Origin: Candidatus Zhuqueibacterota bacterium
GTDB lineage: Bacteria; Zhuqueibacterota; Zhuqueibacteria; Oceanimicrobiales; Oceanimicrobiaceae
Assembly: GCA_029262005.1 (NCBI GenBank)
Contig: JAJDAG010000191.1
Location: forward strand, 1-64,000
Direction of reading: 5' to 3'
DNA length: 64,000 bases
Below, piece after piece: positions 13,617 to 62,100 of this stretch. The notes beneath the pieces were generated by a model. The model worked only from the letters and a program-made list of their open reading frames with translations, was not told where the DNA came from and did not search any database. Numbering within the stretch: position 1 is the stretch's first letter; each line of letters starts with the position of its first letter. The translations under genes and the position numbers were made by a program.

Positions 13617-13664
13617 ATCACCTGTTGTTTAAGTCAGAGAAATGGGAGAATAACCCACTACACA

Positions 13665-16010
13665 TCATGCTGCCACCTTTGCCGGACCGTTGTTATGAGA
13701 ACGCTTTTTGCCCTTCTTGCGTTTCTTGCCATCGCCTTCACCATAGTAGTAGTAATAATGATAGTAATAGTAATAATAGTATGAGCCGTAGGTATTCTCT
13801 CGGCTGACACCATTTAATAAAACACCGAGAATACGTGCATCTACATTCTGCAGCAGTTCAACGCCACGAATGAGTGCGTCTTGGTTGGTTTGTCCCGACT
13901 TCACTACCAGCAAAACGCCATCCACGGCCTGCGACAAAACAGCCGCATCCGTCACAGCAATCAGTGGTGGGCTATCAAACAAAACCATTTCGTAACGGCT
14001 TTTGAGCGTGTCTATAAAGGCTTTCATCTGGTCTGAGCCGAGCATCTCAGCGGGATTCGGCGGCAAAATTCCGGAGGTTAATACATCGAGGTTCTGGATG
14101 TCTGTTTGTTGGATGGCGTCATCAAGCTCCATCTTTCCCACCAGTACATTTGTTAGACCAGTGTTCTTCTCCAGCCCGAAAATGCGGTGACCAACCGGCC
14201 TGCGTAAATCCGTATCGACCAGTATTGTTTTGGTGCCTTGCATGCTGATAGCGATGGCAAGATTAGCTGCAGTCGTGGATTTACCTTCTCCCGGGCCCGA
14301 TGACGTCACCAGAAAACACCGCAGTTTGTTATCGGTACTTGTAAACTGCAAGTTCGTGCGCAGTGAGCGGTAGGCCTCGCTGATGGGAGATTTAGGCTTG
14401 AAATGAGTTACCAGCTTCATTTGATGTTCTTTATACTCACCATTGGCATGGCCGTTAGATTTACCGTTCGTGTAACTGTGACCGTTATTGCTGTCAATAA
14501 AACCGCTGAATGCAGAAGTGTCGATTTCAGGAATCGCCGCCAAAACATTTAGCCCCATGGCTTCAACATCTTCAACCCTGCGCACCGAAGTGTCGAGATT
14601 TTCACGCAGCAATGTGATGCCAATACCAAGTCCGAGTCCAACAAAGCAACCCAGAATCATGTTCAGTTTCTTTTTGGGAGAAATAGGAGAATGTGGTAAA
14701 AATGGCTCATCAATGATACGAACCTTGCCAATCTCGCCTGCTTGCGTAATTCGTGACTCTTCAAACTTTTCACGCATCATCATGTACAGATTCTCGTCAA
14801 CCTTCCGACTGCGTTCCAGGCGGGCCAATTGCACATTTTTGTCAGGCAGGGCCTCCAGTTTGGCTGTATAAACATCCACCACCCGCTTCAACGCGTCGGC
14901 TCTTGCAGTCAGGGAAGCCAGTTCTGTTTCAACTTCCAGGATCTTTATGACTAACTCTTGAGCCTGGGCAAGAGGGTCATCGGCCGGGAGCCCATCAACG
15001 ATGAGTTTGCGTGTTTCTTCTGTTAGCCTGTGCTTTATCGCATTAAGCTTTTCACGTTCTCTATTGACTTGCGGATCCTCTTCTCCCACCCCCTGAGAGA
15101 GAAAAACCGCGATAGTTCTCTCAATATGCGCTAGTTCATTTCGCAATTGCAACACCAATGGGCTTGAAACGCGTGCGATTTCCTTTTCTAGGGTGAGCTT
15201 GCTCTGCCCCAACTGATTTTTGAGATAACTCAGTCGCTTTTTTGTCACTTCCTGCTCAATAAGGGTTTCGCGATAAAGGCTTTCGAAATCTGCACCCTGC
15301 TGCACCACCTGCGCCGCCTCATCGGTTAGTGAGGCAATTTTTTCCTTTTCCAAAAATGTCTTAAGCGCTTCCTCACTACCTTTTAGTTCGCTCTCTTTAC
15401 GGCCCAATTGTGTAACAAGAAAATCAACGACTTGTGAAATTTCTCCTCTGCTAAAACTCTGGTCCATTTCCTGATAAGCCCGTGCCACGCTTTTTGTCAA
15501 ATAGGAAGCCTCAAACGGACTCGGTGCCGTAACCTTAATCATAATGAGATCGGTATTGCCAATTGGCGAAACCGAAATAGAACCCTGGAGGCTTTCGATT
15601 TCTCCCTGAGTGATTTTATCGGATTTCAGGTCTCGCAAAATAGCTAAAGAATCACGATGTGGCGAAATTAGCAAGCGCTCCAAAACGGCCTGCGCCAGAG
15701 AACGACTCTTCAGAATTTCAACCTGATTATTCATGGTGGTCGCAGCCCCTTTAAGCCCGGATTCAGGAAAAAGTGACTGCCCAACAGCTCTTTGCTCATC
15801 GAGCATTATAGTGGTTGAAGCCTCATAAACTGGCGGTGTCGTAAATGTGTGGTAGGTGGTTAACGACATCGTAAGGACAAAAGCAGTAATGATGATCCAT
15901 CGCCCGCGATACAGGATCGCCAGGTAATCGTGAATCGAGACTGCTTTTGCCGGTCGCGTTGTTAAAGACTGACTGGCTGCCGGTAAAGAGTGATTATTAG
16001 TTTTATCCAT
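13665..16010 (-). CDS. Fused Wzz chain-length regulator and BY-type tyrosine autokinase
   Basis: The 781-residue inner-membrane protein controls exopolysaccharide polymerisation and export. A first membrane segment near 37-55 and a Wzz domain precede a long coiled-coil region (about 190-430). A second membrane segment near 475-495 leads to the cytoplasmic kinase. That kinase has Walker A GPGEGKS near 572, Walker A' LVDTDLRRP near 598 and Walker B VLFDSPP near 677. The tail has a tyrosine cluster (about 743-755) and then a lysine/arginine-rich stretch. Such clusters are the autophosphorylation sites of BY-kinases such as Wzc. The single-polypeptide form is the Gram-negative type. It follows the SLBB export gene by 30 bp. 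Confidence 0.93.
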   Translation of the reverse strand: MDKTNNHSLPAASQSLTTRPAKAVSIHDYLAILYRGRWIIITAFVLTMSLTTYHTFTTPPVYEASTTIMLDEQRAVGQSLFPESGLKGAATTMNNQVEILKSRSLAQAVLERLLISPHRDSLAILRDLKSDKITQGEIESLQGSISVSPIGNTDLIMIKVTAPSPFEASYLTKSVARAYQEMDQSFSRGEISQVVDFLVTQLGRKESELKGSEEALKTFLEKEKIASLTDEAAQVVQQGADFESLYRETLIEQEVTKKRLSYLKNQLGQSKLTLEKEIARVSSPLVLQLRNELAHIERTIAVFLSQGVGEEDPQVNREREKLNAIKHRLTEETRKLIVDGLPADDPLAQAQELVIKILEVETELASLTARADALKRVVDVYTAKLEALPDKNVQLARLERSRKVDENLYMMMREKFEESRITQAGEIGKVRIIDEPFLPHSPISPKKKLNMILGCFVGLGLGIGITLLRENLDTSVRRVEDVEAMGLNVLAAIPEIDTSAFSGFIDSNNGHSYTNGKSNGHANGEYKEHQMKLVTHFKPKSPISEAYRSLRTNLQFTSTDNKLRCFLVTSSGPGEGKSTTAANLAIAISMQGTKTILVDTDLRRPVGHRIFGLEKNTGLTNVLVGKMELDDAIQQTDIQNLDVLTSGILPPNPAEMLGSDQMKAFIDTLKSRYEMVLFDSPPLIAVTDAAVLSQAVDGVLLVVKSGQTNQDALIRGVELLQNVDARILGVLLNGVSRENTYGSYYYYYYYHYYYYYGEGDGKKRKKGKKRSHNNGPAKVAA
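13743..13781 (-). repeat. TAY-codon microsatellite encoding the poly-tyrosine tail
   Basis: Thirteen successive codons encode seven tyrosines, one histidine and five tyrosines, using TAT and TAC in mixed order. This low-complexity trinucleotide tract sits inside the autokinase tail. Slippage in units of three would change the number of phosphorylatable tyrosines without breaking the frame. Confidence 0.85.
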
Positions 16011-44651: not shown

Positions 44652-45770
44652 TTATTTTGACCCGCCAAGCTTAATTTTCACTCTTCCCGGGCCATGAGTC
44701 CAATCAGACCAGCCAACGTTTTTGCCGGGCCTGGTCGGTGAAGGCGCAGGAAAATGTGTGCCGTAGTAATAATTTATAATGTGCGGCTGCCAGGTGTCAT
44801 CTTTTCTTGCCGGATAGTCCGCGACATTATGCAGCCACTGAAAAGCACGCAAGAGCGCTTGATCGCTCCACTGCCACACATCCTTGTAGCCCGCACGATA
44901 CAGAATAACTGCTTGCGCCAAGGCGCCCTGCAGTGCTTCATAAACATAATTTTCTTTTGGCGGAGGCCAAACAAATCCGCCCGCGCGACGTTGGTCATCG
45001 GCGATTACGCCATCGATGGAGTGGCCCGCCTTTGTAGCGCCTTTTGGATTAATGCCAACGGGATGCTCCGGATCCGACTGCCAATCCAGAGCTTTGTATT
45101 TGAATTTCGAGTAGGCGACTCTATCGCCAAGCCAGCCCTTGAACACTTTGGCGCATCGCTCAATTTCTACTTTATCGTCGAGATAAACCGCGATGGCGAC
45201 ACGGGTTCCACCTGCGTGCGTACCCCAATTGTTGGGACGATCTTCGTGCGTAGAAATGAGGGAACGACCTTTAAAGTATTCTCGTCGTACCTGCTCCAGC
45301 CATTTACGAAAAATGGCGTCTTTATCGGGTGGCAATCCCACCAGGTCAGCGGCAAGGACGTAGGCAATCAATTCACGACCAACTGCCAGACTACGTGCCC
45401 CGCGTTCGGTGCCAATAGCCGCCATACAGGCTTTGATTACATCAATGCGGTAGTTTTCATAGCCCTTCCGAACATAGACCAGAGCCTTGGCCAGCACAAG
45501 TACGTTGGTTGGATCCTCCTGATTGCTCAGGTCCGGCAGAACAGTGGGCTTGTCGGCCTCAAAACTCAATTTTTCCCAGGCAGGTCCACTTGTTGGCAAT
45601 TTTTTCACTGCCCCCTTAGAAATCCAGATCCCTTTGCTTTGAGAATTCTGTGCCAGAGAACTGGCTGCGCAGGTCAGGTTAAGCAGCATGAGCAGGCTCA
45701 AAAATGTGCACTGAAACTGCCGGGCCAGGTTGTGCTTGCAGAATGATGGTTTTATTTTTCTCATTTTCAA
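44652..45770 (-). CDS. Secreted alginate-lyase-like protein
   Basis: The 372-residue protein has a long basic N-terminus and a signal peptide (LLMLLNLTCAASSLAQ near 26-41). The mature part is helical, with RPNNWGTHAGGTRVAIA near 178-194, resembling the NNxGT motif of the alginate-lyase (PF05426-type) fold. GALAQAVILYRAGY and LLRAFQWLHNVA helices follow. It should be periplasmic. In exopolysaccharide operons such lyases trim or clear mislocalised polymer. It is last in the right-hand cluster. The substrate is unknown. Confidence 0.7.
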   Translation of the reverse strand: MKMRKIKPSFCKHNLARQFQCTFLSLLMLLNLTCAASSLAQNSQSKGIWISKGAVKKLPTSGPAWEKLSFEADKPTVLPDLSNQEDPTNVLVLAKALVYVRKGYENYRIDVIKACMAAIGTERGARSLAVGRELIAYVLAADLVGLPPDKDAIFRKWLEQVRREYFKGRSLISTHEDRPNNWGTHAGGTRVAIAVYLDDKVEIERCAKVFKGWLGDRVAYSKFKYKALDWQSDPEHPVGINPKGATKAGHSIDGVIADDQRRAGGFVWPPPKENYVYEALQGALAQAVILYRAGYKDVWQWSDQALLRAFQWLHNVADYPARKDDTWQPHIINYYYGTHFPAPSPTRPGKNVGWSDWTHGPGRVKIKLGGSK

Positions 45771-45776
45771 ATCTTA

Positions 45777-47066
45777 TTATTCAGGTAAAACCGCGGTCAA
45801 CTGTGTTGCTGATTTTTCACTCTGAGAAAATGCGCAGCCGCTGGAATATAGCAACTGCTGCAACTGTTCTGTACACTTATATAAATTGAAATCCTCTGTC
45901 ACTTTCTTGCGCCCGGCCGTGCCCAGCTTGATTCTCAGGTCACGATCTTTGGCCATCGTTTCCAGGGCTTCAGCAAATTCAAATACATTTCCGGGTGTAA
46001 AAAGTATTCCTGACCGGCCGTCTTCCACCAATTCAGGAATGCCGGAAATCCGGCTGGCAACCACCGGCAAACCGCAGGCCATCGCCTCCATCAACACCAC
46101 GGGAATGCCCTCTTTTTTGCCATCTTTGGTCAACACACTGGCCAAAGTGATTATATCGGCTCTGGCATAAAATTCGAGCACTTCGTGGCGTGGCAAGCCA
46201 CCGTAAACATGAAATCTGTCAGCAATGCCTGATTCTGCAATTTGCTTTTCTACCTGGCCGCGAACAGGACCGTAACCGATGAGGTGACAGTCAAATTTTT
46301 GCCCACGTTCCGCCAGAACCCGGCAGGCTTCAACCAAGTATTTATGCCCTTTTACAGGTTCAAACGAGGCCACGCAAACGAGCTGCAATGTGTCATTTTG
46401 TTTTTCCGGTGCAAACTTAAACGTATCTGCATCCACGCCGCAGTGCACCACTTTAATTCTGTCACTGAACGCCTCACCACTCTCTTTTACCATGATTTCT
46501 TTGTTGAACTCAGAGATGGCGATGGAAAAAGCAGACGCCTGTATTTTTCTATCAATGAAACGACGGTCCACATGCAAATCAGAACCGTGAGCCACAAAAC
46601 TGAATGGAATGCCCGTGAGGCGATGGATGATGAATGCCGACATTGCAGGGTGGGTGGCAAAATGTGCGTGCACATGCGTGACGCCTGATTTTGCCATATC
46701 CTGCGCAAATTTAACGCTTTTCGCAAAAATACCCAAAGTGCCAAACAGAAAGTTCAGGCTAGGCAAAACACCGGTGAAAACTTCCCAAATGAGGCCAAAA
46801 TACTTGCGTGGACAGCAGCGAATAAAACGCCATTGCGCCTTCAGTATTTCAATCGAAATAAACGGTTCAAAGTGGGCTTCTTCAATTATTTTTTGCGCTT
46901 CTTTGTGCGCCACAGGCTGACTTTCCCGCAGCAAAGGATAAACTTCCACCTCTGTTCCAAGCTTGCGAAGCGTAAGCATTTCAAAAAGAATAAAGGTTTC
47001 CGTCAGTTTTGGAAACCGGGACATGATGTAGGCGACTTTTGGTTTTTCAGACATTTCTATTGTCAT
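45777..47066 (-). CDS. Glycosyltransferase family 4 enzyme
   Basis: This 429-residue GT-B transferase opens VAYIMSRFPKLTETF near 10-24. It has HVHAHFATHPA near 134-144, HGSDLHVD, VHCGVDADTF near 208, VASFEPVKGHKYL near 236 and the donor-binding signature EGIPVVLMEAMACGLPVV near 308-325. It adds one sugar in the cytoplasm to the lipid-linked repeat. Six bp separate its stop from the lyase start. Donor and acceptor are not predictable. Confidence 0.9.
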   Translation of the reverse strand: MTIEMSEKPKVAYIMSRFPKLTETFILFEMLTLRKLGTEVEVYPLLRESQPVAHKEAQKIIEEAHFEPFISIEILKAQWRFIRCCPRKYFGLIWEVFTGVLPSLNFLFGTLGIFAKSVKFAQDMAKSGVTHVHAHFATHPAMSAFIIHRLTGIPFSFVAHGSDLHVDRRFIDRKIQASAFSIAISEFNKEIMVKESGEAFSDRIKVVHCGVDADTFKFAPEKQNDTLQLVCVASFEPVKGHKYLVEACRVLAERGQKFDCHLIGYGPVRGQVEKQIAESGIADRFHVYGGLPRHEVLEFYARADIITLASVLTKDGKKEGIPVVLMEAMACGLPVVASRISGIPELVEDGRSGILFTPGNVFEFAEALETMAKDRDLRIKLGTAGRKKVTEDFNLYKCTEQLQQLLYSSGCAFSQSEKSATQLTAVLPE

Positions 47067-47099: not shown

Positions 47100-47876
47100 T
47101 TATTTCTTGAAAGTACTATCGTTTTGCTTAAGCGGAGCATGAATGAACCCATTTCCCGCATCCGAAGCATTCTGTCTGTTTGCTCCTGTTTGCGGCAAAT
47201 ACTCCTGTCCGAGTACCTTATAAATATGCCCACAGACATCCGCAAACACTTTTTCCACCGGTTGGGTTACATCTACGCATTTAAAATTGCGCGTAATTTC
47301 CCCCTGTGCCAGATAAGCCCGCCGCCGCTCTGCCAGGTACGCAATGTTTGCCTCGCCTTTACGGGCAAAAAGCACTTCAGGCGGTGCGTCAAGAAAAATC
47401 ACCAAATCGGGCTCAGGGTAAAAAAGATGCAGACACCAGCGATGTATCTTTTCTGCCACCGGTAATCCGGGAATTTGGATGCTTGCCTTATCAAAATCAA
47501 ACAGAAAGTGGCGATCAAAAAGGACGATGAAACCCTGTTTGCGATAACGCCAGGAAAGCAACTGCCGGTACCACTCTTCTGCAATCCGGTTAATCAGCCG
47601 CACATAAAGCCAGACCGACTTCACAAAGCCCTTCTTTTTTAGAATCGCCTCCTGACTGTGCAATGAGGCGCCAGGCACGCTCGATGCGCCTGAGCTTTTT
47701 CGCTTATGGGTTTTTACTGATTCAATAAAACGCGTAGTTGGCAGACCAACATTGCTCGACTCCTGATTAATGCCCATATAAAGGTATTTCAAAGGCCTTG
47801 GAAATGACTTTTGCAACATGTCTGCGATGGTTGTTTTGCCGGCGCCATCAACGCCGATTAGGGCGACTGAAATCAT
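47100..47876 (-). CDS. Thymidylate-kinase-like P-loop protein (stand-alone copy)
   Basis: The 258-residue protein begins with Walker A GVDGAGKTT near 8-16. Further on are YLYMGINQESSNVGLPTTRF near 31-50, VLFDRHFLFDFD near 117-128 and the Walker-B-like VIFLDAPPEVLFARK near 159-173. The overall order is that of dTMP kinases, but true Tmk is shorter (about 210) and lacks the YMG segment. The C-terminal domain of the 54.9-56.3 kb protein shares these motifs. A kinase acting on a sugar or lipid intermediate is a guess from context. Confidence 0.75.
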   Translation of the reverse strand: MISVALIGVDGAGKTTIADMLQKSFPRPLKYLYMGINQESSNVGLPTTRFIESVKTHKRKSSGASSVPGASLHSQEAILKKKGFVKSVWLYVRLINRIAEEWYRQLLSWRYRKQGFIVLFDRHFLFDFDKASIQIPGLPVAEKIHRWCLHLFYPEPDLVIFLDAPPEVLFARKGEANIAYLAERRRAYLAQGEITRNFKCVDVTQPVEKVFADVCGHIYKVLGQEYLPQTGANRQNASDAGNGFIHAPLKQNDSTFKK

Positions 47877-47965: not shown

Positions 47966-49009
47966 TTATGAGCAACACTGAATATTATCAAACTCAGCAA
48001 CTGCCATCCGCCACATTTTATAATATCGATTTTCGCGAATCCAACTCAGCGTTTCTGCCGGCAAAATTGCGCCGGAGCCACGCGTGCCGCCAAGCCGCAA
48101 CACCAATGTGGAAACATACCGTGCCCAACAGATGACAAACAGCGCTCTTGCCGATTCAGCGGAAAGCTTGAGTTCTTCAAGGTAGTTGCCAATACTGGCT
48201 GTTGCCCAGGAATTTGCGCCAAAGAAAGCAGCGCGAAAAGCTGCCATCTGCTCATCCAAATTATTTGCATTCATGCGGGCAAAGGCGATATAACTTAAAA
48301 AGAAAAACAGATCCACTGCCGGAAGTCCGTCCGGAAGCGCCAACTCCCAATCGACAACACCTAACCTGTTCTCGGCAGAAATCAGCAAATTGGGTGAACT
48401 AAAATCGCCGTGCTCGAAAACCGTTGGCACCGTCTGCCTAACAAGTGCATCCGCGATTTCCAGTGTTTTTTCTAAGCAAACCCGATCCCTTTCAGAATCA
48501 AAAGTCAGCGCTTGCAGCAATTGCAAAGGCTTCTGTACACTGGACTTAAACCAGGAAGTTTGATTCTGCGGCATCTTTCTGGAGCAGTTGTGAACAGAGG
48601 TCAGCCAATTCACACCGGTTTCAATTGCCAGCTCCAAATTTTGACGCACAAAAGCAGGCCGCATTGTTTGGCCGGCCACCGCAGTTTCAATCAGCATTCG
48701 ATGTCCGAAATAGTCTTCAAAAGCCACAACTCTGGGTGCAGAACTCAAATCTTTGGGCAGCAATTCCTGCAACGCTTTTAGATTGTTCCTTTCGCGGCAT
48801 AAACGACTGTGATCTCCCGCAAGCCGGGGGACTTTGGCGATGAGTACCGGCTTTTTTACATTTTCCGGAAAAACAAAAAATATGAGATGACTCGACGCTT
48901 TGAAACGCGGGGTCGCTATAACAGAAGTAAACCGGTCGGCGGCACCGAACTCTTCAAGACCCAATCGGTCCTTATTCTGCAGAAGAAATGTCAGGACAGC
49001 ATTACGCAT
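47966..49009 (-). CDS. Aminoglycoside-phosphotransferase-fold kinase (stand-alone copy)
   Basis: The 347-residue protein (ATG 49009, GGGGG upstream) has the APH/choline-kinase core: EHGDFSSPNLL near 202-212 with the catalytic Asp and Asn, then VVDWELALPDGLPAVDLFFFL near 222 with the metal-binding Asp. APH-fold kinases phosphorylate hydroxyls on sugars, choline and similar small molecules. Its start shares a base with the stop of the methyltransferase-like gene (TAATG), so the two are translationally coupled. The same domain is fused to a homologous partner at 51.3-53.0 kb. Confidence 0.82.
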   Translation of the reverse strand: MRNAVLTFLLQNKDRLGLEEFGAADRFTSVIATPRFKASSHLIFFVFPENVKKPVLIAKVPRLAGDHSRLCRERNNLKALQELLPKDLSSAPRVVAFEDYFGHRMLIETAVAGQTMRPAFVRQNLELAIETGVNWLTSVHNCSRKMPQNQTSWFKSSVQKPLQLLQALTFDSERDRVCLEKTLEIADALVRQTVPTVFEHGDFSSPNLLISAENRLGVVDWELALPDGLPAVDLFFFLSYIAFARMNANNLDEQMAAFRAAFFGANSWATASIGNYLEELKLSAESARALFVICWARYVSTLVLRLGGTRGSGAILPAETLSWIRENRYYKMWRMAVAEFDNIQCCS

Positions 49010-49635
49010 TACATTTCCCCCTGCGATTTGCGGGCAACAAAACTGACGCACGGCGTCAATAACGCAACCAGGCGCAGTCTTTGCAAGAGCATGCCCAGAG
49101 CAGAAATGACCTTGCCCTTGAAGTTGCTCTGATTTCGCTGAAAAACATGTTGCAAGGCATTGCTGTCAGCCAAAGGTACCAAATCCAGACAGTGCTCAAA
49201 GTTGGGCCTGTGCCAATGCACGGTCACATCAGAATACCCAATTGTTCCAAGCCGTTTGGCCACTGCTCGTGTATTAGAAAAAATACGTGATCGTTTTAAT
49301 TCCAAATAAAGGCAGCCACCCGGTCTTAATACCTTTGTTGCCTTTTTAAGTGCCATGAAATCAGACGAATTACCCACAAGCAAGTCCAGACGTTGTACTG
49401 TACCGGTCTTACCGGCGCCGGCAGAATCAGTGAGCAAAATGACGCTGCCTGAGAATTTCTGCAATGCCTGGCAAAGTGCGCTTTCACGCTTGCCGATATA
49501 ACCGACCACACCTAATCCCGGGCTGGGAAGCAAGAAACGCCAATCGAGTCGGCGGACCGTAACCAGCTGTTCTTCGTGATTAGGTGCGGCTTTTTTATCG
49601 ACCACCGGATTTTGTTGAACTGCGATTTCTGTCAT
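49009..49635 (-). CDS. Degenerate methyltransferase-like protein
   Basis: This 208-residue protein has a Rossmann-like layout: LGVVGYIGKRE near 43-53 in place of SAM motif I, ILLTDSAG as the second strand, and KVLRPGGCLYLELKR near 100-114, a strand-5 motif of class I methyltransferases. The glycine-rich SAM loop is poor, so activity is doubtful. It shares DWRFLLP near 31-37 and several later segments with the N-terminus of the 51.3-53.0 kb fusion protein. ATGA overlap with the upstream polymerase gene and TAATG coupling to the kinase gene indicate joint function. Confidence 0.65.
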   Translation of the reverse strand: MTEIAVQQNPVVDKKAAPNHEEQLVTVRRLDWRFLLPSPGLGVVGYIGKRESALCQALQKFSGSVILLTDSAGAGKTGTVQRLDLLVGNSSDFMALKKATKVLRPGGCLYLELKRSRIFSNTRAVAKRLGTIGYSDVTVHWHRPNFEHCLDLVPLADSNALQHVFQRNQSNFKGKVISALGMLLQRLRLVALLTPCVSFVARKSQGEM

Positions 49636-51230
49636 TGAGTCAGTGGTGTTTTGTGCGAAACGAAGGGATGGGCGCCTCCTGTTTCAATTTCGATATCACC
49701 GTCTTCACTCTCAAACTCCGTGCTTAAAATGTGCACGGCAGCACCCGATATCGCCAGCAAAATCCAGAGGTAGCGTTGATAAGAAAAATGCAAAAACATG
49801 GCTGTGGTAAGGTAACAAAAAATACCGAGCAAGAAGGCCGTAGCAACATTGGCCAACTCCTGTCGACCCTCGCCAACAAACCGAACCCGCAACCGCCAGA
49901 GCCGGTAAAGCAAGTAGAAGACGATGCTCATAAAACAAACAAAGCCAAGAGTTCCCGCCTCGGCCAACATCTCAAAATAGAGTGTGTGCGCTCTCCTTGT
50001 GGAATCAATGTCGCGAAAGGCGATTTCCGGATTGGCCATGTATTGAACGGAATAGAATTTGGAATACTGACCCGGGCCAACACCGACGATTGGATGATCG
50101 AGATAGGCTGTAAAAGCCGCGAGCATTTCAGTCACCCGGCCAAGCGTGGCACCGTCGGCCTTAACAGAAGCATCGTCAGTAAAAAGCGCACTCACATTTG
50201 TAATTGAAGACATGCGGAGAAAATAGCCCGGCGATGCGATAGCGATGACGATAAGCAAACTCACAACAGACAAGACCAATTGAGAGACCTTTATGTAGCG
50301 CAACATTGTCATCATAAGTACAAGAAAAATCACTGAAATAAAGGCACCCCGTGAGTAAGTCAGTAACATACCAACCAGGATGAACAAAGTGCACCCGAGG
50401 GCCGTCACCTTCAGCCATTTTTTCTTTTCATCTATAAACCGGAATAACCCTAGCGGAAGCAGCACGATCATAATTTGACCATAACGATTGGCACCACCAA
50501 CCGGCCCACCGGCCCGATTGGCCAGACGGACTTTGTCTTCAGGGCCTGTATTTTTTGGGCCACCATCCCAATGTGAAATATTCCGTTGCGCCAGACCGCC
50601 GTAATTATCACCATAACTTTTTGTGAGTTCCTGCACGAGCGTCAGGCTGCCGAGCAAGGTTCCGGCCAACAGCAGCGTCCAGATGACCTTGCGCAAGGTG
50701 TCAAAATTGCGCACGACATTCAAAATAAGAATGTACATGGCCAGACCTTCCATCAAATAAGTTAAGATCCAATCCATGCCAACCTTAACGCTGACCGCTA
50801 CTGAAAGCGATGCAAAAAGTGAAGCCAGAAAAGCAATCATCAGCAGCCAGGTATAATCGATAATAAATCGTTCCCGGCGAATGAACCAGTAAATGGTGAG
50901 CGGTACACACAACATTAACGAAACCGAACCTGCCACAATTTGCGGCAAGCCATGAAATTTGTAAGCTACCACCGCAATGTTGGTATAAATCACAAAAATA
51001 ACCAGCAGTGTGCCCTGTTCCGGCCAAGAAAAAAATGCGACGACCATGAAGCCTACAACCACCAACGCCAGCACAATGGTCACGTGCACCTTTGTAACCA
51101 TCAAAGTCAGTAAAGCCACAACCCCAAGCACAACGAAAAGGGTAATATAGGCTGGCCCCAAAGAAAAGCGCTGCTTTTTCTTTGGGGCCATTTCCTTTAA
51201 AAATTCTTTTTGAAGATCTGCCGGATTCAA
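49632..51230 (-). CDS. O-antigen polymerase/ligase (Wzy_C family) membrane protein
   Basis: The 532-residue inner-membrane protein has about 11-12 hydrophobic helices. The conserved LLTYSRGAF lies near 307-315, and the large periplasmic loop carries HPIVGVGPGQY near 389-399 and RRAHTLYFEMLAEAGTLGF near 423-441, the O-antigen ligase/polymerase signature. It polymerises repeat units or joins a glycan to an acceptor on the periplasmic face. The first 13 residues before the ATG at 51191 use a TTG start; the true start is uncertain. Confidence 0.88.
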   Translation of the reverse strand: MNPADLQKEFLKEMAPKKKQRFSLGPAYITLFVVLGVVALLTLMVTKVHVTIVLALVVVGFMVVAFFSWPEQGTLLVIFVIYTNIAVVAYKFHGLPQIVAGSVSLMLCVPLTIYWFIRRERFIIDYTWLLMIAFLASLFASLSVAVSVKVGMDWILTYLMEGLAMYILILNVVRNFDTLRKVIWTLLLAGTLLGSLTLVQELTKSYGDNYGGLAQRNISHWDGGPKNTGPEDKVRLANRAGGPVGGANRYGQIMIVLLPLGLFRFIDEKKKWLKVTALGCTLFILVGMLLTYSRGAFISVIFLVLMMTMLRYIKVSQLVLSVVSLLIVIAIASPGYFLRMSSITNVSALFTDDASVKADGATLGRVTEMLAAFTAYLDHPIVGVGPGQYSKFYSVQYMANPEIAFRDIDSTRRAHTLYFEMLAEAGTLGFVCFMSIVFYLLYRLWRLRVRFVGEGRQELANVATAFLLGIFCYLTTAMFLHFSYQRYLWILLAISGAAVHILSTEFESEDGDIEIETGGAHPFVSHKTPLTQ

Positions 51231-51268
51231 AATATCAATGCTGTATTAAAGTAATAAGAAGAAACAGT

Positions 51269-53047
51269 TTAGCATATCTGTGGTTTCATTCTTTTTTCTA
51301 TGCTTACGTGCTGTGATGCCACTTGGGCCGCAGAAAAAATTGTCTGCAAACCGACACTTTCTGCATTTGAAATACAGAGTTTCAGAAGGTTAAAGTAGTG
51401 CCCGTCGGTTAAAGTATCATTCGTCAGCCTGGCGGATTCCTTCAGCGAGCGATGCATCCAGCAGGTGTAAAATAGAGGCGCTACCAGTTTGCCATCCAAG
51501 TTGATATTGCAGCAATATGTTTGGATTATTTGTGCCAGCCAATCAACAAATGGTGATGGTTGCAGGAAATTCGTAGCAAAGTTCTGCAATGGGTCACTGC
51601 TGCCCTGTTGGCGCAATACCCAGGAGGCAAATGTGCGCATAAAATAAAACATATCCCACAGAGGAATACCGCGCGGTTCACCCGCCTCCCAATCAATGAA
51701 AATCACGCTGTTATCTTCGGAAACCAGAATGTTCCATGTGCCGGGATCGCCATGTTGAAACACCAGCGGAAATGCTCCGTCACTGTTTTGCAGAACATCC
51801 AATTGCGTCTGCAGGAAACCACGTTCCTCTGTGGACAGCGAGTAAATTTCAGTAAAGCGCTTGAATAGCTTGCCGAGATTTTCAGCAACAGCCGGGCCAT
51901 CGACCAAGTTTGAATTGACGGATTTGCTCCCCAATTGCACGAGCCAGTCAACAGCGGCATGCGCCAGCGGGCAATCCTTTGACGCCTGAGTGCGTGCACG
52001 AAATGGCGCGCCGTGCACCGCTTTTTGAGATAGAACCGCCAAGCCGTTGTGTGTGTCGAAAAACAATGGCTCGGGATAGCTCTCTCTGTATACAAAATTT
52101 CCTTCGCGAATTGCGGCAAGGGCGCGGTATTCATTTTCCAGGCGATAGTTGAACTCCGGGGCGCGTGTCATTTTTATCACGGCATCCGGCCTGTTCGAGT
52201 TCTGAGGAAACAGGTAGTAAATGGGTTTGTTGGCGTTGTATTTTCCACGTGTAGAAAGGCCAAAACGATAATCAGCAAGATCGATGTTTGCTTTCCCCGC
52301 CAAATTGCACAGGAATTTGGGTAACCTGTTTTTCTGTGAAGCAATATTTGATTTTTGTAAAAAAACAGTGCGCCTCGGCATGACTCTGTTGAGCAGACCG
52401 CACCGACTCAAAAAACTACCGGCACGACTCATTGTGCGTTTTCTCCAGGACTGGCCGTAAAGCACATTTTCAAAGAAAAACTCGGCGATGTCCTCTGCTT
52501 CCAACGGAACGGCTGTGCGCATTTCACCACTAAAAGGGGTCAGCCAAAACTGCTGCTGTTTCTTGAGACCTGCCGCAGTAAGTCTTTTTATCAGACTGCG
52601 ACCCGCAGCCTGCATCGGGCGCCCTCTCAGTTCAAAATTCAAAACACCGTTCGGGCGCAACAAGGACGCCAGCTGTTTTTGCAGCGCCTTTTTCTGTAGA
52701 AATAATTTGATTGTTTTCGTCTTAGCGATACGAATAAAGGTAAAACTCTCTGCGGCGAAAGGCAAGTCCGCATAGGTCGCAACATGCTCAAACTTAAAAC
52801 TGCAACCCCCTTTTTCCTCGCATTTACTCTTAAACTCTGAGAGCCGGGCGCTATCAGTGCAGACCACGACGACTTCACCTGCCGTGGCAGAAAGTACTGC
52901 CACGTTGGCGGCAGAAGGCACGTCAATGCAGAGCATGCGTTCAACGCTTAAACCGGGCAACAAAAAGCGCCAGTCGGCGGAAACCATGTCCCCCTGTAAA
53001 TTGGTGCCAGGGATGAATTTTGTTGAAAGAGTCGATTCTATCATCAT
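51269..53047 (-). CDS. Fusion of methyltransferase-like domain and APH-fold kinase
   Basis: Residues 1-230 match the stand-alone 49.0-49.6 kb protein in order: DWRFLLP near 26-32, SLLRPNGVLNFELRG near 150-164, and a cysteine-poor VMPRRTVFLQKS end. Residues 250-560 form an APH kinase: FQHGDPGTWNILV near 433-445 and FIDWEAGEPRGIPLWDMFYFM near 449-469, with catalytic Asp, Asn and metal Asp all present. The SAM loop of the first domain is degenerate. The gene is 38 bp upstream of the polymerase. The split pair next to it suggests a gene duplication with fusion or fission. Confidence 0.78.
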   Translation of the reverse strand: MMIESTLSTKFIPGTNLQGDMVSADWRFLLPGLSVERMLCIDVPSAANVAVLSATAGEVVVVCTDSARLSEFKSKCEEKGGCSFKFEHVATYADLPFAAESFTFIRIAKTKTIKLFLQKKALQKQLASLLRPNGVLNFELRGRPMQAAGRSLIKRLTAAGLKKQQQFWLTPFSGEMRTAVPLEAEDIAEFFFENVLYGQSWRKRTMSRAGSFLSRCGLLNRVMPRRTVFLQKSNIASQKNRLPKFLCNLAGKANIDLADYRFGLSTRGKYNANKPIYYLFPQNSNRPDAVIKMTRAPEFNYRLENEYRALAAIREGNFVYRESYPEPLFFDTHNGLAVLSQKAVHGAPFRARTQASKDCPLAHAAVDWLVQLGSKSVNSNLVDGPAVAENLGKLFKRFTEIYSLSTEERGFLQTQLDVLQNSDGAFPLVFQHGDPGTWNILVSEDNSVIFIDWEAGEPRGIPLWDMFYFMRTFASWVLRQQGSSDPLQNFATNFLQPSPFVDWLAQIIQTYCCNINLDGKLVAPLFYTCWMHRSLKESARLTNDTLTDGHYFNLLKLCISNAESVGLQTIFSAAQVASQHVSIEKRMKPQIC

Positions 53048-53176: not shown

Positions 53177-54739
53177 CTATTTCTTTGTCGAAAAAACCTT
53201 TTTCATCAACGGCAGTTTCAGCAGCTCAGGAAAGGTCTCTTCCACATCCAACTTGCTGCGGGTAATCATGAAAATAATGCATGAAACCGCGGCAGCCAAA
53301 CCGCCTGCCACAAAAACATTCATCGTCAAGAAATACTGAATCAGAAATAAGCCAAAACCACCGACCAGGATTATCAGGTAGAAGGAAAGATACTTCCACT
53401 CAAAAATCCGCATGCCGGATGCCATTCTCAAACCAGCCTGTTTTAAAATATTGTGTACAATCATTGCAACGGTCGTGCCAATGGCAGCACCGAGCGCCCC
53501 GTAGCGCGGAATGAGAAAGAGTGCCAGTGAAATATTGAGCAGCGCGGCCACAATATTAATAGTCACAACATATTTAATCTTACCTAAAACCTTTAAAGTC
53601 AAACCATTAAACCCGAGAACAACATTAAAATAATAGGCAAAAGAGATCATGGCCAGATAAATCCAGGAAGGCTCATATCTTGCCTTATAAAGTAACACTG
53701 TTAAAGGTTGAGCCAATGAAAATGTCAGAGCAAACACTGGAAAAGAAAGAATGGCCATCCAAATCGCGGTGCGCCAATAGAGGTTGTTGATGCCGTCAAA
53801 ATCATTTTTAGCAAAAAGGCGCGCTGCCAGTGGCGTGTAAAGCAGGCCGAAGCTGGCCATGACTATCTTATTAAAGTGCGCCGCCGGTAAAATAACGCGG
53901 TACGCAGCTACTTCAGATGCGTCGTGAAAGTAGCCAAGCAACAGCGTGTCCATAGAATGCATGACAATGTTGACCAGATCAGACGACATCAGCGGCAAGG
54001 TAAACGCAAAAATTTCTTTCACCGGCATGGTCGTGGTTTTGAGATTGAAACGCGCTAGAAAACCTTGTTTCAACATCATACGGATGAGCATGCCGATGTA
54101 AATAATCACACCCAGAAGGCTGCCACCAATCCAGCCATACGCCAAAAACATGACTGAACTGTTAAAATAGACAAGGGCCAGAACCACTGCAACTTTCAGG
54201 CAGGGCCCGAGAATATGCTTGCGAAAAAAAATCGCTTTCGGGCTGGCCAGACTGGCAAAAAGCCCGATCAAAAGGCCATCAATCGCCTCGACCGGAACCA
54301 TGAAAATTAGAATCAGGATGACAAAAACAGGCTGTTCTTTGTCGTTGATCAGCCGGGCAAGTGTTTCCGGCGACAAATGAATGGCGCCAATAATCACAAC
54401 ACTGGTCAGCGCAATGGTGATGAGCACCATAAAGATGGTGCCGAAAAGCTTGTCGTATTCATCATTTTCATGATAAATGGGCACAAATCGGGTGATACCG
54501 CGGCGGAGGCCAAGCGTGGAAATACCCTGAAAAAAAGCAACCACGGACAACGCATAAGTCCAGGCACCGTAATCTGCCTGCGTCAACTGACGCACAATCA
54601 AGACTTGGGAGATAAAATTAAGGCCGGTTGAGATGAACCGGCCTGCCAGCAACAAACTTGAACCGCGAATTTGCTTGCGAGTTGCGTCGCCCTTTTGGCT
54701 GGGCTTGGCGTTCTTTTCTTTTTCTACTGTAACTTCCAT
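53177..54739 (-). CDS. Oligosaccharide flippase (Wzx/MATE-like)
   Basis: This 520-residue integral membrane protein (ATG 54739, AAGGA upstream) has about 14 hydrophobic helices. GSSLLLAGRFISTGLNFISQ near the N-terminus, RQLTQADYGAWTYALSV and the central PLMSSDLVNIVMHSMDTLLLGYF are typical of polysaccharide flippases. It moves the lipid-linked repeat unit to the periplasmic face for the adjacent polymerase. Wzx and Wzy flank the kinase fusion gene, which ties the kinase to repeat-unit assembly. Confidence 0.9.
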   Translation of the reverse strand: MEVTVEKEKNAKPSQKGDATRKQIRGSSLLLAGRFISTGLNFISQVLIVRQLTQADYGAWTYALSVVAFFQGISTLGLRRGITRFVPIYHENDEYDKLFGTIFMVLITIALTSVVIIGAIHLSPETLARLINDKEQPVFVILILIFMVPVEAIDGLLIGLFASLASPKAIFFRKHILGPCLKVAVVLALVYFNSSVMFLAYGWIGGSLLGVIIYIGMLIRMMLKQGFLARFNLKTTTMPVKEIFAFTLPLMSSDLVNIVMHSMDTLLLGYFHDASEVAAYRVILPAAHFNKIVMASFGLLYTPLAARLFAKNDFDGINNLYWRTAIWMAILSFPVFALTFSLAQPLTVLLYKARYEPSWIYLAMISFAYYFNVVLGFNGLTLKVLGKIKYVVTINIVAALLNISLALFLIPRYGALGAAIGTTVAMIVHNILKQAGLRMASGMRIFEWKYLSFYLIILVGGFGLFLIQYFLTMNVFVAGGLAAAVSCIIFMITRSKLDVEETFPELLKLPLMKKVFSTKK

Positions 54740-54878
54740 ATTTTCCTTAAACGAATGGGTTGCCCTGCGTGGACTAACCGCAAACGTCACTCAACTTCAT
54801 GTCGAGCAATCCGCCTCAAGTCCACGACAGTAATTTTTCATGCCAATTTCATCGCGAACTTCTAAGACAATTACCGCC

Positions 54879-56300
54879 CTAACGCGCTGCGCTCCCATAT
54901 TTTTTCCAGATGAGCGCGGTTACATCATTTCTCACTTCATCGGCAGTTTGCGAAGCATCGATTATCACCATTTGCGGCAATCTGTCTTTTAGCTTGTGAT
55001 AGCCTTCACGCTGCTTGTCAATCCACTCCGGCGAGTGTTCTCGTTTTCGGGCAAAAAGGAGTTCTCCCGGCGCATCGAGCAACACAACCAAATCCGGGAT
55101 TGGCGCCACAGAATCGAACAACAAACGACGCAAACGTTTCCACGGCGAAGTTTGTTTTTTCTGAATCCAGGCATCATAAATAAAGCGATCAAAAACAACA
55201 AAACGCCCCCTGAGAAGCTGGTAACGTGCTGCCAGGCAGCGGTACCAGTGATCAAGTAACGAATTTACCAGGTTAAGCGCACGGATGCTCATGCCGTAGA
55301 GAGTCTTGCGTTTATTATGCTTATTAATTTTACGAACCAGTCTGGTTAAAAATGGTGTCGTACGCAGACCGATGGTGCGTGCATCAAGGTTCGACCCCAT
55401 ATAAATCATTCTCGCCCGAAGAAATTTGTCTTGAACCAGACTGGCGGCCAGGGTGGATTTCCCGGCTCCGTCCGGCGCTAACAATGCCACAGATACGCCG
55501 TGCTTCTGTTTTGCAAAGTAAACCAAACGAAATCTGCGTTGCAGCAAAGTCTTGAATTCAAACCACTTGCTCTTCAATCCGCTTTGTCTGGAAAACCGGC
55601 TATTTATCCGGGCACGCTTACTGAGCAACCTTTCCCAGTCTCCGGATTTTATTGCCTGAAAAATGCCTTCCCAGCTAAATTCAGGCTGAAGATGCTGCGT
55701 TATAACCACCCGCATTTTCTTTTCAATCCCCTCATCTTCAGCGGCCATGTTCATGAGCAAAGACAGACGTTGCCGATGCTTTTCATCAAATCGCCCCTTA
55801 TCCAGCAGACAATGCAGAAGCAGTCCGAGCAATTCATGTTCGTAAGCCAAAAGGAAAATTTCTTTTTTCCGTCGTAGCTCCCAAATGTCTGTCATGGCGG
55901 CAGGATACTTGCGAACGGGGCTGCCAAAGAAAAAATCAGAGACAACATCAAGCTTAATCCAGTGCCCCAATTCAGTCGAAAATGCGACGAAAAATCTGTG
56001 TGGCGCATGTCCCTGAGACAAGATTTCCACAAAACCATGTCCAGCCATGGCCGCAGCCATTTTTTCGACATCGTGAGGATGAACGAGCAGGTCGACTTCG
56101 ATATTCCCGTGTGCCTCAAGCAGCTCTTCAAAACCACGAATCAGCGCATAACGAATCTCTACACTTTCCAGAACATCAAAAACAAACTTCGTTGGAAAAT
56201 CTATTTTTTGTGATCGGCCTCTGACCATTGTCAAAGTATTTTCAGCCACCAGCACGCACCCCAATAATTTACTGTTATCAATTGCAGACACATTTGGCAC
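54879..56300 (-). CDS. Nucleotidyltransferase-like domain fused to a thymidylate-kinase-like domain
   Basis: The first 250 residues resemble a minimal nucleotidyltransferase fold: IRYALIRGFEELLEAHGNIEVDLLVHP near 51-77, where the acidic pair in EVDLLV would bind metal. The second half is a P-loop kinase: LAPDGAGKST near 275-284, IYMGSNLDARTIGLRTTPF near 297, VVFDRFIYDAW near 372 and LVVLLDAPGELLFARKRE near 412. That half is a paralogue of the 47.1-47.9 kb protein. Translation starts at a GTG sharing one base with the upstream stop (TAGTG). The substrate is unknown; nucleotidyl or phosphoryl transfer to a glycan intermediate is possible. Confidence 0.75.
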   Translation of the reverse strand: MPNVSAIDNSKLLGCVLVAENTLTMVRGRSQKIDFPTKFVFDVLESVEIRYALIRGFEELLEAHGNIEVDLLVHPHDVEKMAAAMAGHGFVEILSQGHAPHRFFVAFSTELGHWIKLDVVSDFFFGSPVRKYPAAMTDIWELRRKKEIFLLAYEHELLGLLLHCLLDKGRFDEKHRQRLSLLMNMAAEDEGIEKKMRVVITQHLQPEFSWEGIFQAIKSGDWERLLSKRARINSRFSRQSGLKSKWFEFKTLLQRRFRLVYFAKQKHGVSVALLAPDGAGKSTLAASLVQDKFLRARMIYMGSNLDARTIGLRTTPFLTRLVRKINKHNKRKTLYGMSIRALNLVNSLLDHWYRCLAARYQLLRGRFVVFDRFIYDAWIQKKQTSPWKRLRRLLFDSVAPIPDLVVLLDAPGELLFARKREHSPEWIDKQREGYHKLKDRLPQMVIIDASQTADEVRNDVTALIWKKYGSAAR

Positions 56301-57085
56301 TAAGCTCTCTGGTTGGCCATCACCTGTTTTTTTTGCCCAATCTGCCTGACCTGATAAAAGAGAAAGAAAAAGAAGCCGGCAGCGAGGACAAGTTCCATAA
56401 CTTCAGAGTATTCAGAGACAACGAAATAAAATTTCTTTGGTACTGAAAAAAGGTTTCTGTAAACTCGCCAGGCAAAAGGCATAAAAAAGAATGGAATCAA
56501 TGTAAAATGCGGAATCAACATCGACAACTCAGAACGAAAGGCCTGCATTTTTTTTGACCGCAACATCAGCAGCGGCAGCAAGCTACCATACGCTCCTATC
56601 AACAAATGTATCCATTTAAAAGCATAACCAACACCATGAACATTATGGATATTGGTTTCAGCTTGCTTGTTTATTTCTGCGTAAGATTCAGGCGTTGCCC
56701 AACCAATAATTCTTTGCCCCCAACTGATCTCTTCTCCAATCAAAAAGAAAATACCGATTGCCAACAAAACGTAAAGAACCCGAATGACTGAGTTAACACG
56801 ATAGTTTTTCACAACATATAATGTGAAAAAAAATGACATCAGCCAAAAGGCGACTTGCAGATATTCGGCAATTTTGTCTTCCCCCGTAAGCATTTTGTAT
56901 GCGTCTTTGCCCATGAGCGCAGCAACCACACCGCTGAATGCAATCAGAAATGGAAGCAAGAGCAGCAACTTCAAGCGACCTTGCGAAATGCGCCATTCCT
57001 GTGAACTCTGAGTAAAAAAGCGACTTAATTTGCTGTCTGTATTCAACTTGTTTTCCGATGTTTCAACTGTTGTTATCTGGCTCAT
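56300..57085 (-). CDS. Six-helix membrane protein of unknown function with EEISWGQR motif
   Basis: This 261-residue inner-membrane protein has about six hydrophobic helices. Between helices three and four a highly conserved-looking EEISWGQRIIGWATPE stretch (near 117-132) is followed by the TNIHNVHG segment (near 143-150). Charged residues (Glu-Glu, Arg, His-Asn) next to membrane segments suggest an enzyme active site rather than a transporter. I do not recognise a named family. Its stop overlaps the start of the NTase/kinase fusion gene. Confidence 0.7.
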   Translation of the reverse strand: MSQITTVETSENKLNTDSKLSRFFTQSSQEWRISQGRLKLLLLLPFLIAFSGVVAALMGKDAYKMLTGEDKIAEYLQVAFWLMSFFFTLYVVKNYRVNSVIRVLYVLLAIGIFFLIGEEISWGQRIIGWATPESYAEINKQAETNIHNVHGVGYAFKWIHLLIGAYGSLLPLLMLRSKKMQAFRSELSMLIPHFTLIPFFFMPFAWRVYRNLFSVPKKFYFVVSEYSEVMELVLAAGFFFFLFYQVRQIGQKKQVMANQRA

Positions 57086-59602: not shown

Positions 59603-60811
59603 TCATTGTGCTTCCGTCCGAGCCAATTCACTTTGACCCGGAGCTGCTTCGCGACTGCCATTTTTGCAGTCTTTGCCGTTGAGTTGCCCCTCGCAAAATG
59701 GTTGCATCACTTCATACAATTTTTCAAATGACAGCGGGTAAGGATGACCCACTGCGTAGGTTTCTTTCCCTTCGAGCGCTTTTGAGAGCAGAGCCAATTG
59801 TTGCTCTGCAGCGTTCTCAATAAACAAATTTGCTTTATCGGGAAAAGCGAATTTAAACGGATAGTAGCTCTCTAAAAACGGCATCAATTCAAATTGTAAA
59901 GAAGCAACCATTCGTTTTGCAATTTCAAGCGGCGCAACTGCATTGACAGTATAATCCGTCGATTCGTGGCTCAGCATCAAGAAAACTTTGTCCGGTGTTG
60001 AGGAAAAGCCTTTGGCCAGCCGTTCAAAAATTACAGATGGAGCCCATTGGACGTTAAGCTGCCGTTTGAGAGCAGGCATGGCTTCGCGCAGAAATTTCAC
60101 CGGCATGGTTCTACCAATGCCGTTTGCAGGTAGCATGTTCTGCAGCCGGTCGAGGCCATGAATACAACTGAAAAGCGCCTTTTTCTCAAACCCAAGATGC
60201 TTCTTTAAATGCGGCATATTCTCCAGGTGCCAGTCCCAAAGCCTGATGTTTTCCGGAATGCCGTACATAGACTGGCCATCGGCCGTGAGATAAATCCACT
60301 CATCGCCGACATATTCAGCACCATGAGCAGCAAACGAGAGTAGCGCTTCCGTTTTTCCGCCTTTTGCCCAGCCGGTAACCACAATTCCAGTGCCCTTATA
60401 ATTAAAGGCAGATGCGTGCAGGGCCAACACATTTTTTTTCAAAAGAGTGAGATTAAGTACTGCAAGCAGCGACGGTACTGACTTCAGGCCACTCTGACAT
60501 ACGAATTCGATGCGCCCACCAACCTGGCCTAATGAAACAGCCACCTTTGCATCACGCTTGCTGCTTCGCAATATGAAAAATTCATCCTCATTGTAACCAA
60601 GTTTCTTCGGGCCAAGATAGTGCAGCCCCGGGGTTTGTAGCTCGGAAACAAAGCGAATAACAATGTCAGGGTCACGATCCAGTGATTTCTGCAACGGTCC
60701 GAGTTGTTTCGCTACAGTTTCGACATCTTTACAGCTGGGATTGAACAGTCGAACGCCCACGAATCCGTGTATATCGAAATCAATAATATTTTCTGTGTCA
60801 ATAGCGCTCAT
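59603..60811 (-). CDS. HPr-kinase-like protein
   Basis: This 402-residue protein has a beta-rich N-terminus and an HprK-like kinase domain. LHASAF leads to Walker A GWAKGGKTEALL near 147-158 and the strand EYVGDEWIYL near 168-177. It lacks the HprK signature MEIRGxG that phosphorylates HPr Ser46. Similar HprK-related kinases occur in exopolysaccharide and lasso-peptide loci. It overlaps the ATP-grasp gene by 4 bp, so the pair is coupled. The substrate is unknown. Confidence 0.75.
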   Translation of the reverse strand: MSAIDTENIIDFDIHGFVGVRLFNPSCKDVETVAKQLGPLQKSLDRDPDIVIRFVSELQTPGLHYLGPKKLGYNEDEFFILRSSKRDAKVAVSLGQVGGRIEFVCQSGLKSVPSLLAVLNLTLLKKNVLALHASAFNYKGTGIVVTGWAKGGKTEALLSFAAHGAEYVGDEWIYLTADGQSMYGIPENIRLWDWHLENMPHLKKHLGFEKKALFSCIHGLDRLQNMLPANGIGRTMPVKFLREAMPALKRQLNVQWAPSVIFERLAKGFSSTPDKVFLMLSHESTDYTVNAVAPLEIAKRMVASLQFELMPFLESYYPFKFAFPDKANLFIENAAEQQLALLSKALEGKETYAVGHPYPLSFEKLYEVMQPFCEGQLNGKDCKNGSREAAPGQSELARTEAQ

Positions 60812-62100
60812 ACTTTTGCCTCTGACTGTACTTCTGCCGGCGAATCCACCACTTTAGCATTGGTAACGGAATTGACGTTGTTCTTAACCGAGTCTCCCGG
60901 CTTGTTCTCCCGAGAAAAAACAACGGCGGCAAACTTCCCAAAGAAATCTGCAAAAAATGGACGCAAATCCGTTGACGACCACACTGCGTAACCCTTTTTC
61001 CCGCGCAACGATTTTACCCATTGGCGAAAAGTCAAATCACCGCGCCGCCAGTAGAACCACGCAGACTGTAAATCACGACGCCAGTAAATCCATTTTACAC
61101 CACCATATTTCTGCACCCGATTTTCCGGGAGAGGTAGCCCAACAACATCACAATACTTGGTGTACAACAGTGCAACATCGCCGGCCTCGGAAATGGCTGA
61201 TCGGCCTGTTGGCCGGCCAATATTGGGTTCAATAATGTAGTGTTTGCCGGAACGCTCATCCTTTTTCATTTCAACATATCCTAGACCGCGGTATTGCACC
61301 TTGCGAAAAAGCTGGACTGTTTCTTCTAACACAATGTCGTTCCGCACTTCCTCACCCAGACAACTTGTGCCCACTTCCGGTGGCCACTGCCGCAGCTTAC
61401 GTGCAATAAATGTTACCAACGGTTCAGACTCAGAATCAAAATAACAATTGCAGGAATATAAATTTGCATCGGTGCCTTCTACACAATCCTGCACCATTAA
61501 TATATCGGCCCAATCGCAACAGCGGTCGTATAACGCCACCAATTCTTTTTCACCGGCGACTTTATAAACTTTGTGTTTTGTATTGGCTTCCCATTTAGGG
61601 GATTTCATTGGCGGCTTCAAAATGCAAGGGTAGGCAATCGACTTCAACGCGACATCAAGATCCGAGCGGCTTTCAAGGAAAAAGGTAGATGGGATCGGCA
61701 GCCCTTCCTTCTGGGCAAACTTGATGAACGCTATTTTGTCCATAAGCATTTCTACTACAGGCGCATCCGGGAGTACAACGTGGTAGTCCTGCTGCAAGTT
61801 CTCACGGTGACGAGAAATCTGCAAGACACTCATATCAGTACACGGATACAAAACCGCCTTTTGTTTCAATTCGCCTGCCAGTACTTTGAGAGTTTCAATA
61901 AACTCTGTTGAAGATGTGTCAGCAAAAAGCACCCGATCGCAGGCTTTTGTATGACAAGCAAAATGCCCTGGGTTTTTTGCAATGGCAATCACCGGAACAT
62001 CATGACCGGCCAGAATTCTGGCGCTTTGCAAGCCCGTCATACAGTCGAGACCAACTATAATGGCAGGTGGTCTGTTAGAATTTTTCTTATTACTATTCAT
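60808..62100 (-). CDS. ATP-grasp family ligase
   Basis: The 430-residue protein has an N-terminal Rossmann-like pre-ATP-grasp domain (IIVGLDCMTGLQSARIL near 14-30). The ATP-grasp core follows: DKIAFIKFAQKEGLPIPST near 120, YPCILKPPMKSP near 155, LMVQDCVEGTDANLYS near 202 and YIIEPNIGRPTGRSA near 291, which holds the metal-binding Glu and Asn. Such enzymes join a carboxylate to an amine or thiol through an acyl phosphate. Its link with the HprK-like gene suggests ligation of an amino acid or similar group to the glycan; that is inference. Confidence 0.82.
   Translation of the reverse strand: MNSNKKNSNRPPAIIVGLDCMTGLQSARILAGHDVPVIAIAKNPGHFACHTKACDRVLFADTSSTEFIETLKVLAGELKQKAVLYPCTDMSVLQISRHRENLQQDYHVVLPDAPVVEMLMDKIAFIKFAQKEGLPIPSTFFLESRSDLDVALKSIAYPCILKPPMKSPKWEANTKHKVYKVAGEKELVALYDRCCDWADILMVQDCVEGTDANLYSCNCYFDSESEPLVTFIARKLRQWPPEVGTSCLGEEVRNDIVLEETVQLFRKVQYRGLGYVEMKKDERSGKHYIIEPNIGRPTGRSAISEAGDVALLYTKYCDVVGLPLPENRVQKYGGVKWIYWRRDLQSAWFYWRRGDLTFRQWVKSLRGKKGYAVWSSTDLRPFFADFFGKFAAVVFSRENKPGDSVKNNVNSVTNAKVVDSPAEVQSEAKV

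Follow-up and report, generated by a model that had tools for sequence, protein, structure and literature searches.

WbdD, the chain terminator of Escherichia coli O9a, phosphorylates the terminal mannose and then methylates the phosphate (PMC3482155), and ORF6 of Klebsiella pneumoniae O7 combines a methyltransferase with an AmiN-like (APH-type) kinase and works on the glycan end (PMC11231755). Here we describe a fused gene and a gene pair in a polysaccharide-building cluster of a KSB1-type bacterium, located in a 64,000-nucleotide stretch of contig JAJDAG010000191.1 (the window), in which a methyltransferase-fold domain devoid of the S-adenosylmethionine (SAM) motif is joined twice to an APH-family kinase with a complete catalytic set. 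The feature is real and well conserved. The three genes were found where an earlier note on this DNA had placed them, all on the minus strand:

51269-53047, minus strand: fused protein A (label P0003), a degenerate SAM-methyltransferase-fold domain (residues ~19-236) followed by an APH-family kinase domain (~240-562; PF01636, E = 5.8e-06)
49009-49635, minus strand: MTB (P0002), stand-alone degenerate methyltransferase-like protein without SAM motif, paralogue of the N-terminal half of A
47966-49009, minus strand: APHB (P0001), stand-alone APH-family kinase, paralogue of the C-terminal half of A, its start overlapping the MTB stop (TAATG; PF01636, E = 1.4e-13)

Like WbdD (E. coli O9a and K. pneumoniae O3; 4azs, 4azt, 4ax8, 4uw0), protein A carries a methyltransferase fold followed by a kinase fold and is encoded in a polysaccharide cluster. 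It differs in that it has neither the SAM motif nor the C-terminal coiled coil, its kinase belongs to the APH family, the domains are posed differently (root-mean-square deviation (rmsd) 17.9) and its cluster is of the Wzx/Wzy type, whereas that of WbdD is of the ATP-binding cassette (ABC) transporter type. Because it lacks the SAM motif and the coiled coil, and no ABC exporter was found on the window's contig, A does not belong to the WbdD-type terminators. ORF6-N of K. pneumoniae O7 likewise joins a methyltransferase to a kinase, the closest solved structure of which is the amicoumacin kinase AmiN; compared by description, ORF6-N has in addition an active methyltransferase, a coiled coil, a carbohydrate-binding module and fused glycosyltransferases (PMC11231755). 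The family may thus, at most, work in part like WbdD and O7 ORF6. A search of open-licence papers returned only the two terminator papers; no account was found of polysaccharide clusters in which a degenerate methyltransferase is paired with an APH kinase, which, given that coverage, is weak evidence of absence.

The gene pair and the fused gene are paralogous

The earlier note had aligned the pair in order with the two halves of A and had named a lack of profile-profile similarity between MTB and the N-terminal half as evidence to the contrary. Profile-profile comparison matched MTB with the N-terminal half (99.0%, E = 3.5e-18, 174 columns) and APHB with the C-terminal half (99.9%, E = 4.3e-36, 296 columns), which identifies the two genes as paralogues of the halves and rejects chance similarity. 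In BLASTP searches APHB and A share 25% identity over 257 positions (E = 2e-19), and MTB and A 23% over 209 (E = 4e-6), the latter alignment beginning at DWRFLLP. This motif and LRPxGxLxxEL, HGDxxxxN and DWE..G.P..D.F.F, which the note had listed as shared marks, were all recovered and are largely conserved among relatives. The TAATG overlap of MTB stop and APHB start is real, and the assignment of the genes to one operon agrees with the gene arrangement, namely same strand, close spacing and conserved gene order. Among 12 loci, MTB stop and APHB start overlap in six; in four the two genes lie 3 to 17 bases apart and in two farther.

Three findings reject a recent frameshift that split a fused gene: most genomes with an MTB gene (23 of 26) have the split form, the start of APHB aligns with the starts of its relatives, and MTB stop and APHB start overlap out of frame. 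The list of open reading frames also holds a longer APHB frame (47966-49051) with a GTG start; the ATG at 49009 is the better choice, as it aligns with the relatives' starts ('MNxxLxYL').

In the kinase tree (58 rows, omitting C_L054, A_L067b and A_L086; the stand-alone alignment was used without the L054 row) the fused group (35 rows) and the stand-alone group (19 rows) are each set apart by a branch, with Shimodaira-Hasegawa-like approximate likelihood ratio test (SH-aLRT) supports of 93 and 93, below the 95 at which the tool sets its star. The methyltransferase tree (56 rows, omitting A_L075, A_L086 and A_L067b) separates fused from stand-alone group with supports of 98 and 95. Since KSB1 and Chloroflexi rows occur in both groups, either the whole pair was duplicated before these lineages arose or the cluster moved between lineages as a block, both of which would produce this pattern.

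The methyltransferase-like domain lacks the SAM motif

The domain has the class I SAM methyltransferase (Rossmann) fold, with a VIA match to 1vl5 (Z 16.3, rmsd 2.5, 155 aligned), and neither MTB nor the N-terminal half of A has a Pfam match above cut-off, matches below cut-off being the only ones. The SAM motif [DE]xGxGxG is absent from all 35 fused copies that have the N-terminal domain (37 fused rows were looked at, two of them without it) and from all 17 stand-alone copies, but is present in both of the intact distant fusions, P0004 and P0005. These counts bear out the proposal that the first domain does not carry out ordinary methylation. The fused family can be aligned end to end with P0004 and P0005 (L058:3133-5202 and L059:6485-8563; 509 columns, E = 2.2e-22), whose genes are flanked by weak matches to Wzx and Wzy; unlike A, these two proteins combine an intact SAM motif with a Cys-rich N-terminal stretch ahead of the methyltransferase and APH domains. 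No second pair was seen in the stretches read at these two loci. As such a distant end-to-end relative keeps the motif, loss from an intact ancestor is the likely direction, judged by comparison without a rooted tree. A further window protein (1529-2644) has a Trm112-like start before its methyltransferase, similar to the N-terminus of P0004 and P0005.

At the place of the SAM loop the fused family has a conserved C-x-G-x-P (27, 28 and 29 of 32 rows). W26, L29-L30-P31, P171, G174 and P181 are conserved in 29-32 of 32-33 rows, and the stretches W..LLP and WLTP..GE..TAVP are conserved as well. The domain is therefore kept by selection, though, judged by the SAM motif, not for SAM. The residue that closes the second strand, usually acidic in class I methyltransferases, is mixed across 32 fused rows. 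As the earlier note suggested, the first domain may bind or recognise a ligand, which could include SAM held in a non-canonical way. A bacterial enzyme domain that seems to be without its chemistry is thus kept with a kinase across phyla, and an intact relative is at hand for comparison.

The kinase domains retain the catalytic residues

Both kinases match PF01636 (LicA, AmiN, APH(3')) above its curated cut-off of 23.2 bits, APHB with 51.6 and A with 26.7 bits. The marks of the APH family are the catalytic HGDxxxxN and a metal-binding Asp. H432, G433, D434, N439, D452, W453 and E454 are invariant in 34 of 34 fused kinases and the N-lobe K292 in 33 of 33, and K59, E73, H200, D202, N207 and D220 are invariant in all 16 stand-alone kinases. 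By these residues the catalytic set is complete in both units. An antibiotic-resistance kinase was rejected, the APH(3') NCBIfam model giving 34.8 bits against a cut-off of 205. The nearest kinase-fold matches are small-molecule kinases, namely APH(3'')-Id, the choline kinase LicA, homoserine kinase and FN3K. The solved APH relatives listed are kinases without a pseudo-methyltransferase partner, whereas each window kinase has one.

Both domains recur together across genomes

Among 82 genomes of the same phylum, including the window's own, the fused protein is matched in 14 and MTB in 10. A scan of genome contigs with the fused alignment yielded 32 loci, all in metagenome assemblies, whose titles name KSB1, Chloroflexi, Latescibacterota, Armatimonadetes, Acidimicrobiales, Solirubrobacteraceae and others; single taxon titles may be wrong. 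The contigs of L066 and L075, titled Deltaproteobacteria and Nitrosomonas, hold KSB1-like copies, that of L066 being about the same as L065, which suggests that both contigs are misbinned. The whole fused protein is visible at 30 of the 32 loci; L075 is cut by a contig end, and upstream of the L086 kinase the methyltransferase half is absent.

In the 32 genomes that carry these loci APHB was detected in 27 (E = 1e-70 or better) and MTB in 26, that is, both together in 26, neither in five, and APHB alone in one, where it is a 251-residue frame matched only in part. In 25 of the 26 genomes with both, no more than 142 bases separate the matched parts of MTB and APHB. In the remaining one (G087) they are 806 bases apart, and in L050, the copy of this locus that was read, a uracil-DNA-glycosylase (UDG)-like frame (13322-14047) lies between them.

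In L062, L089 and L092 MTB and APHB share one open frame. As L089 and L092 are sisters in the kinase tree (SH-aLRT 99) while L062 groups with the window (82), the simplest reading would be two separate fusion events. In L053 (9199-10974) and L054 (8166-9926) one frame encodes a third APH-family kinase and, after it, the methyltransferase-like domain; in L048 (7319-8425) this third kinase is a separate gene just upstream. All fused frames are those of the assemblies as they stand. Recurrent fusion in differing arrangements and joint presence and absence, with the partial frame as the one exception, support the prediction of the earlier note that the two domains function as a unit, and they probably act together. 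The family is widespread in exopolysaccharide clusters under KSB1, Chloroflexi, Latescibacterota, Armatimonadetes and Actinobacteria titles, is two-part and apparently uncharacterised, and would be annotated as 'phosphotransferase' or receive no name.

Structure models relate protein A to WbdD

The structure of A was predicted from 24 sequences (P0003 and 23 of the 32 loci) with a mean predicted local distance difference test (pLDDT) score of 90.7 and a predicted TM-score (pTM) of 0.89. The natural MTB-APHB fusion of L062, modelled as a stand-in for the pair of the window, reached a pLDDT of 88.5 and a pTM of 0.89, and both fusions are compact in the models. A search with the A model in Foldseek gave WbdD as the first three matches (4azt, 4azs and 4ax8; E = 3.3e-09 to 5.8e-08, 565-571 columns), ranking above every single-domain kinase or methyltransferase, with an alignment that spans both domains. 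WbdD is not among the 50 VIA matches listed for the A model, which excludes nothing. Protein A joins the two folds in a single chain, methyltransferase first and kinase second; the pair does so only in its natural fusions. The A model has no C-terminal coiled coil, as the chain ends soon after the kinase (last helix 565-586).

The genes lie in a Wzx/Wzy-type cluster

Flippase, polymerase/ligase and GT4 transferases assign the cluster to the Wzx/Wzy type. The neighbouring genes are:

45777-47066, minus strand: GT4 glycosyltransferase flanking the cluster (PF00534, E = 1.5e-38)
47100-47876, minus strand: thymidylate-kinase-like P-loop kinase, conserved downstream neighbour (PF02223, E = 2.4e-09)
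49632-51230, minus strand: Wzy/O-antigen ligase-type polymerase between the two units, conserved neighbour (PF04932, E = 1.9e-19)
53177-54790, minus strand: Wzx-type flippase directly upstream of A (PF01943, E = 4.7e-20)
54879-56300, minus strand: nucleotidyltransferase-like region fused to a thymidylate-kinase-like domain (PF14907, below cut-off)
59603-60811, minus strand: HprK-related kinase-like protein, conserved cluster (TIGR04355, E = 1.9e-05, below cut-off)
60808-62100, minus strand: ATP-grasp-like protein, conserved cluster (NF009402, E = 1.5e-15, below cut-off)

In 23 of the 29 loci that extend 400 bases or more upstream of the fused gene, Wzx is its immediate neighbour on that side, and the HprK-like, thymidylate-kinase-like, nucleotidyltransferase-like and ATP-grasp-like genes recur in the cluster among relatives. 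Farther off in the window are a Wzc-like protein (Wzz, GNVR and AAA domains; 13665-16010) and an SLBB export protein. No ABC exporter was found on the contig of the window (C103) by PF01061, which has six matches elsewhere in the genome.

Possible function of the two units

The computed results comprise the homologies, the pairing and fusion of the genes, the lost SAM motif, kinase residues that are intact and the Wzx/Wzy context; architecture and pseudo-enzyme state are supported. We tentatively favour, at somewhat less than an even chance, a mechanism in which fused gene and gene pair, as two paralogous pseudo-methyltransferase/kinase units, would phosphorylate a sugar of the lipid-linked repeat unit before Wzx. 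The APH-fold kinase would use a nucleotide triphosphate to phosphorylate a hydroxyl of an exopolysaccharide sugar, most likely while the lipid-linked repeat unit that carries it still awaits flipping by Wzx on the inner face of the membrane, and the methyltransferase-fold domain, without ordinary SAM binding, would hold the acceptor glycan or dock the kinase to the assembly machinery. Glycan acceptor, lipid linkage, role of the pseudo-domain, substrate and step are what we infer in this mechanism. An extension, in our view unlikely, is that phosphate marks set by both units beside Wzx license export or polymerisation, a checkpoint derived from a terminator-type kinase/methyltransferase with the dead domain as glycan reader. 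The locus goes beyond the earlier note in its architectural kinship with WbdD and in the presence of both units in a cluster conserved across phyla, and it connects, in a testable way, Wzx/Wzy systems with the kinase/methyltransferase terminators that act on ABC-dependent glycans.

Several observations weigh against phosphorylation of a lipid-linked glycan by a WbdD-related pair of units. The TM-scores of A with WbdD are at most 0.26 with rmsd values of 17.7-20.1 (first match: 565 columns, 0.26, rmsd 17.9), so that the domains are posed differently. WbdD was not recovered by sequence searches of the PDB, the first Foldseek matches of the L062 fusion are single APH kinases, and neither the first 50 Foldseek matches nor the 50 VIA matches listed for this fusion include WbdD, an absence that excludes nothing. 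Five of the 32 genomes hold the fused gene without the stand-alone pair, and the two units are therefore not obligate partners of each other. APH-fold matches span choline, homoserine, antibiotic and fructosamine kinases, and since the fold serves kinases of a wide range of small molecules, it does not by itself point to a glycan acceptor. Finally, the other kinases of the cluster are without assigned substrate, which makes a small-molecule pathway possible.

The main rival, which we consider rather unlikely, follows from the nearest kinase folds acting on choline, homoserine, fructosamine and antibiotics: the units would phosphorylate a free small molecule (sugar, sugar derivative or alcohol) feeding an activated precursor into the polysaccharide, with the products of the thymidylate-kinase-like and nucleotidyltransferase-like genes taking the next steps. 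NahK and AmgK are, beside LicA, comparable kinases of free small molecules. The best fold matches (APH(3'')-Id, LicA, homoserine kinase, FN3K) and the conservation of the thymidylate-kinase-like and nucleotidyltransferase-like neighbours agree with this idea, whereas the position of the fused gene next to Wzx in 23 of 29 loci argues against it. To our knowledge, small-molecule kinases of this kind have no conserved pseudo-methyltransferase partner.

Alternatively, the N-terminal domain might bind SAM via an unusual loop, making the unit a true kinase/methyltransferase that produces a methyl-phosphate cap. Domain order and first Foldseek match are those of WbdD, the SAM motif is retained by distant relatives, and where the SAM loop used to be the sequence is not random but a conserved C-x-G-x-P. 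Against these points stand the motif counts (0/35 and 0/17), the mixed residues closing the second strand in 32 rows, the A model without a long C-terminal helix and the lack of an ABC-2 membrane protein on the window's contig, so that we regard a methyl-phosphate cap as distinctly improbable. APH-like and protein kinases have a common fold, and close linkage with Wzx and Wzy would fit units that phosphorylate proteins of the assembly machinery and thereby regulate export. A Wzc-like protein is, however, already present in the window, and in structure the kinase domain comes closest to small-molecule kinases, which makes protein phosphorylation a very improbable function of the units.

Further observations on the cluster

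The two thymidylate-kinase-like proteins, one stand-alone (47100-47876) and one fused (54879-56300), mirror the split/fused pattern of MTB, APHB and A. The HprK-related and ATP-grasp-like genes (59603-62100) overlap by four bases and recur across phyla. A membrane-type protein (56300-57085) is conserved in the cluster; searched up to E = 1 it matches nothing in Pfam, and its only NCBIfam match is below cut-off. An alginate-lyase-like protein (44652-45770; PF05426, E = 3.1e-08) adjoins the cluster, and in L049 and L051 a homologue is located between the fused gene and Wzy.

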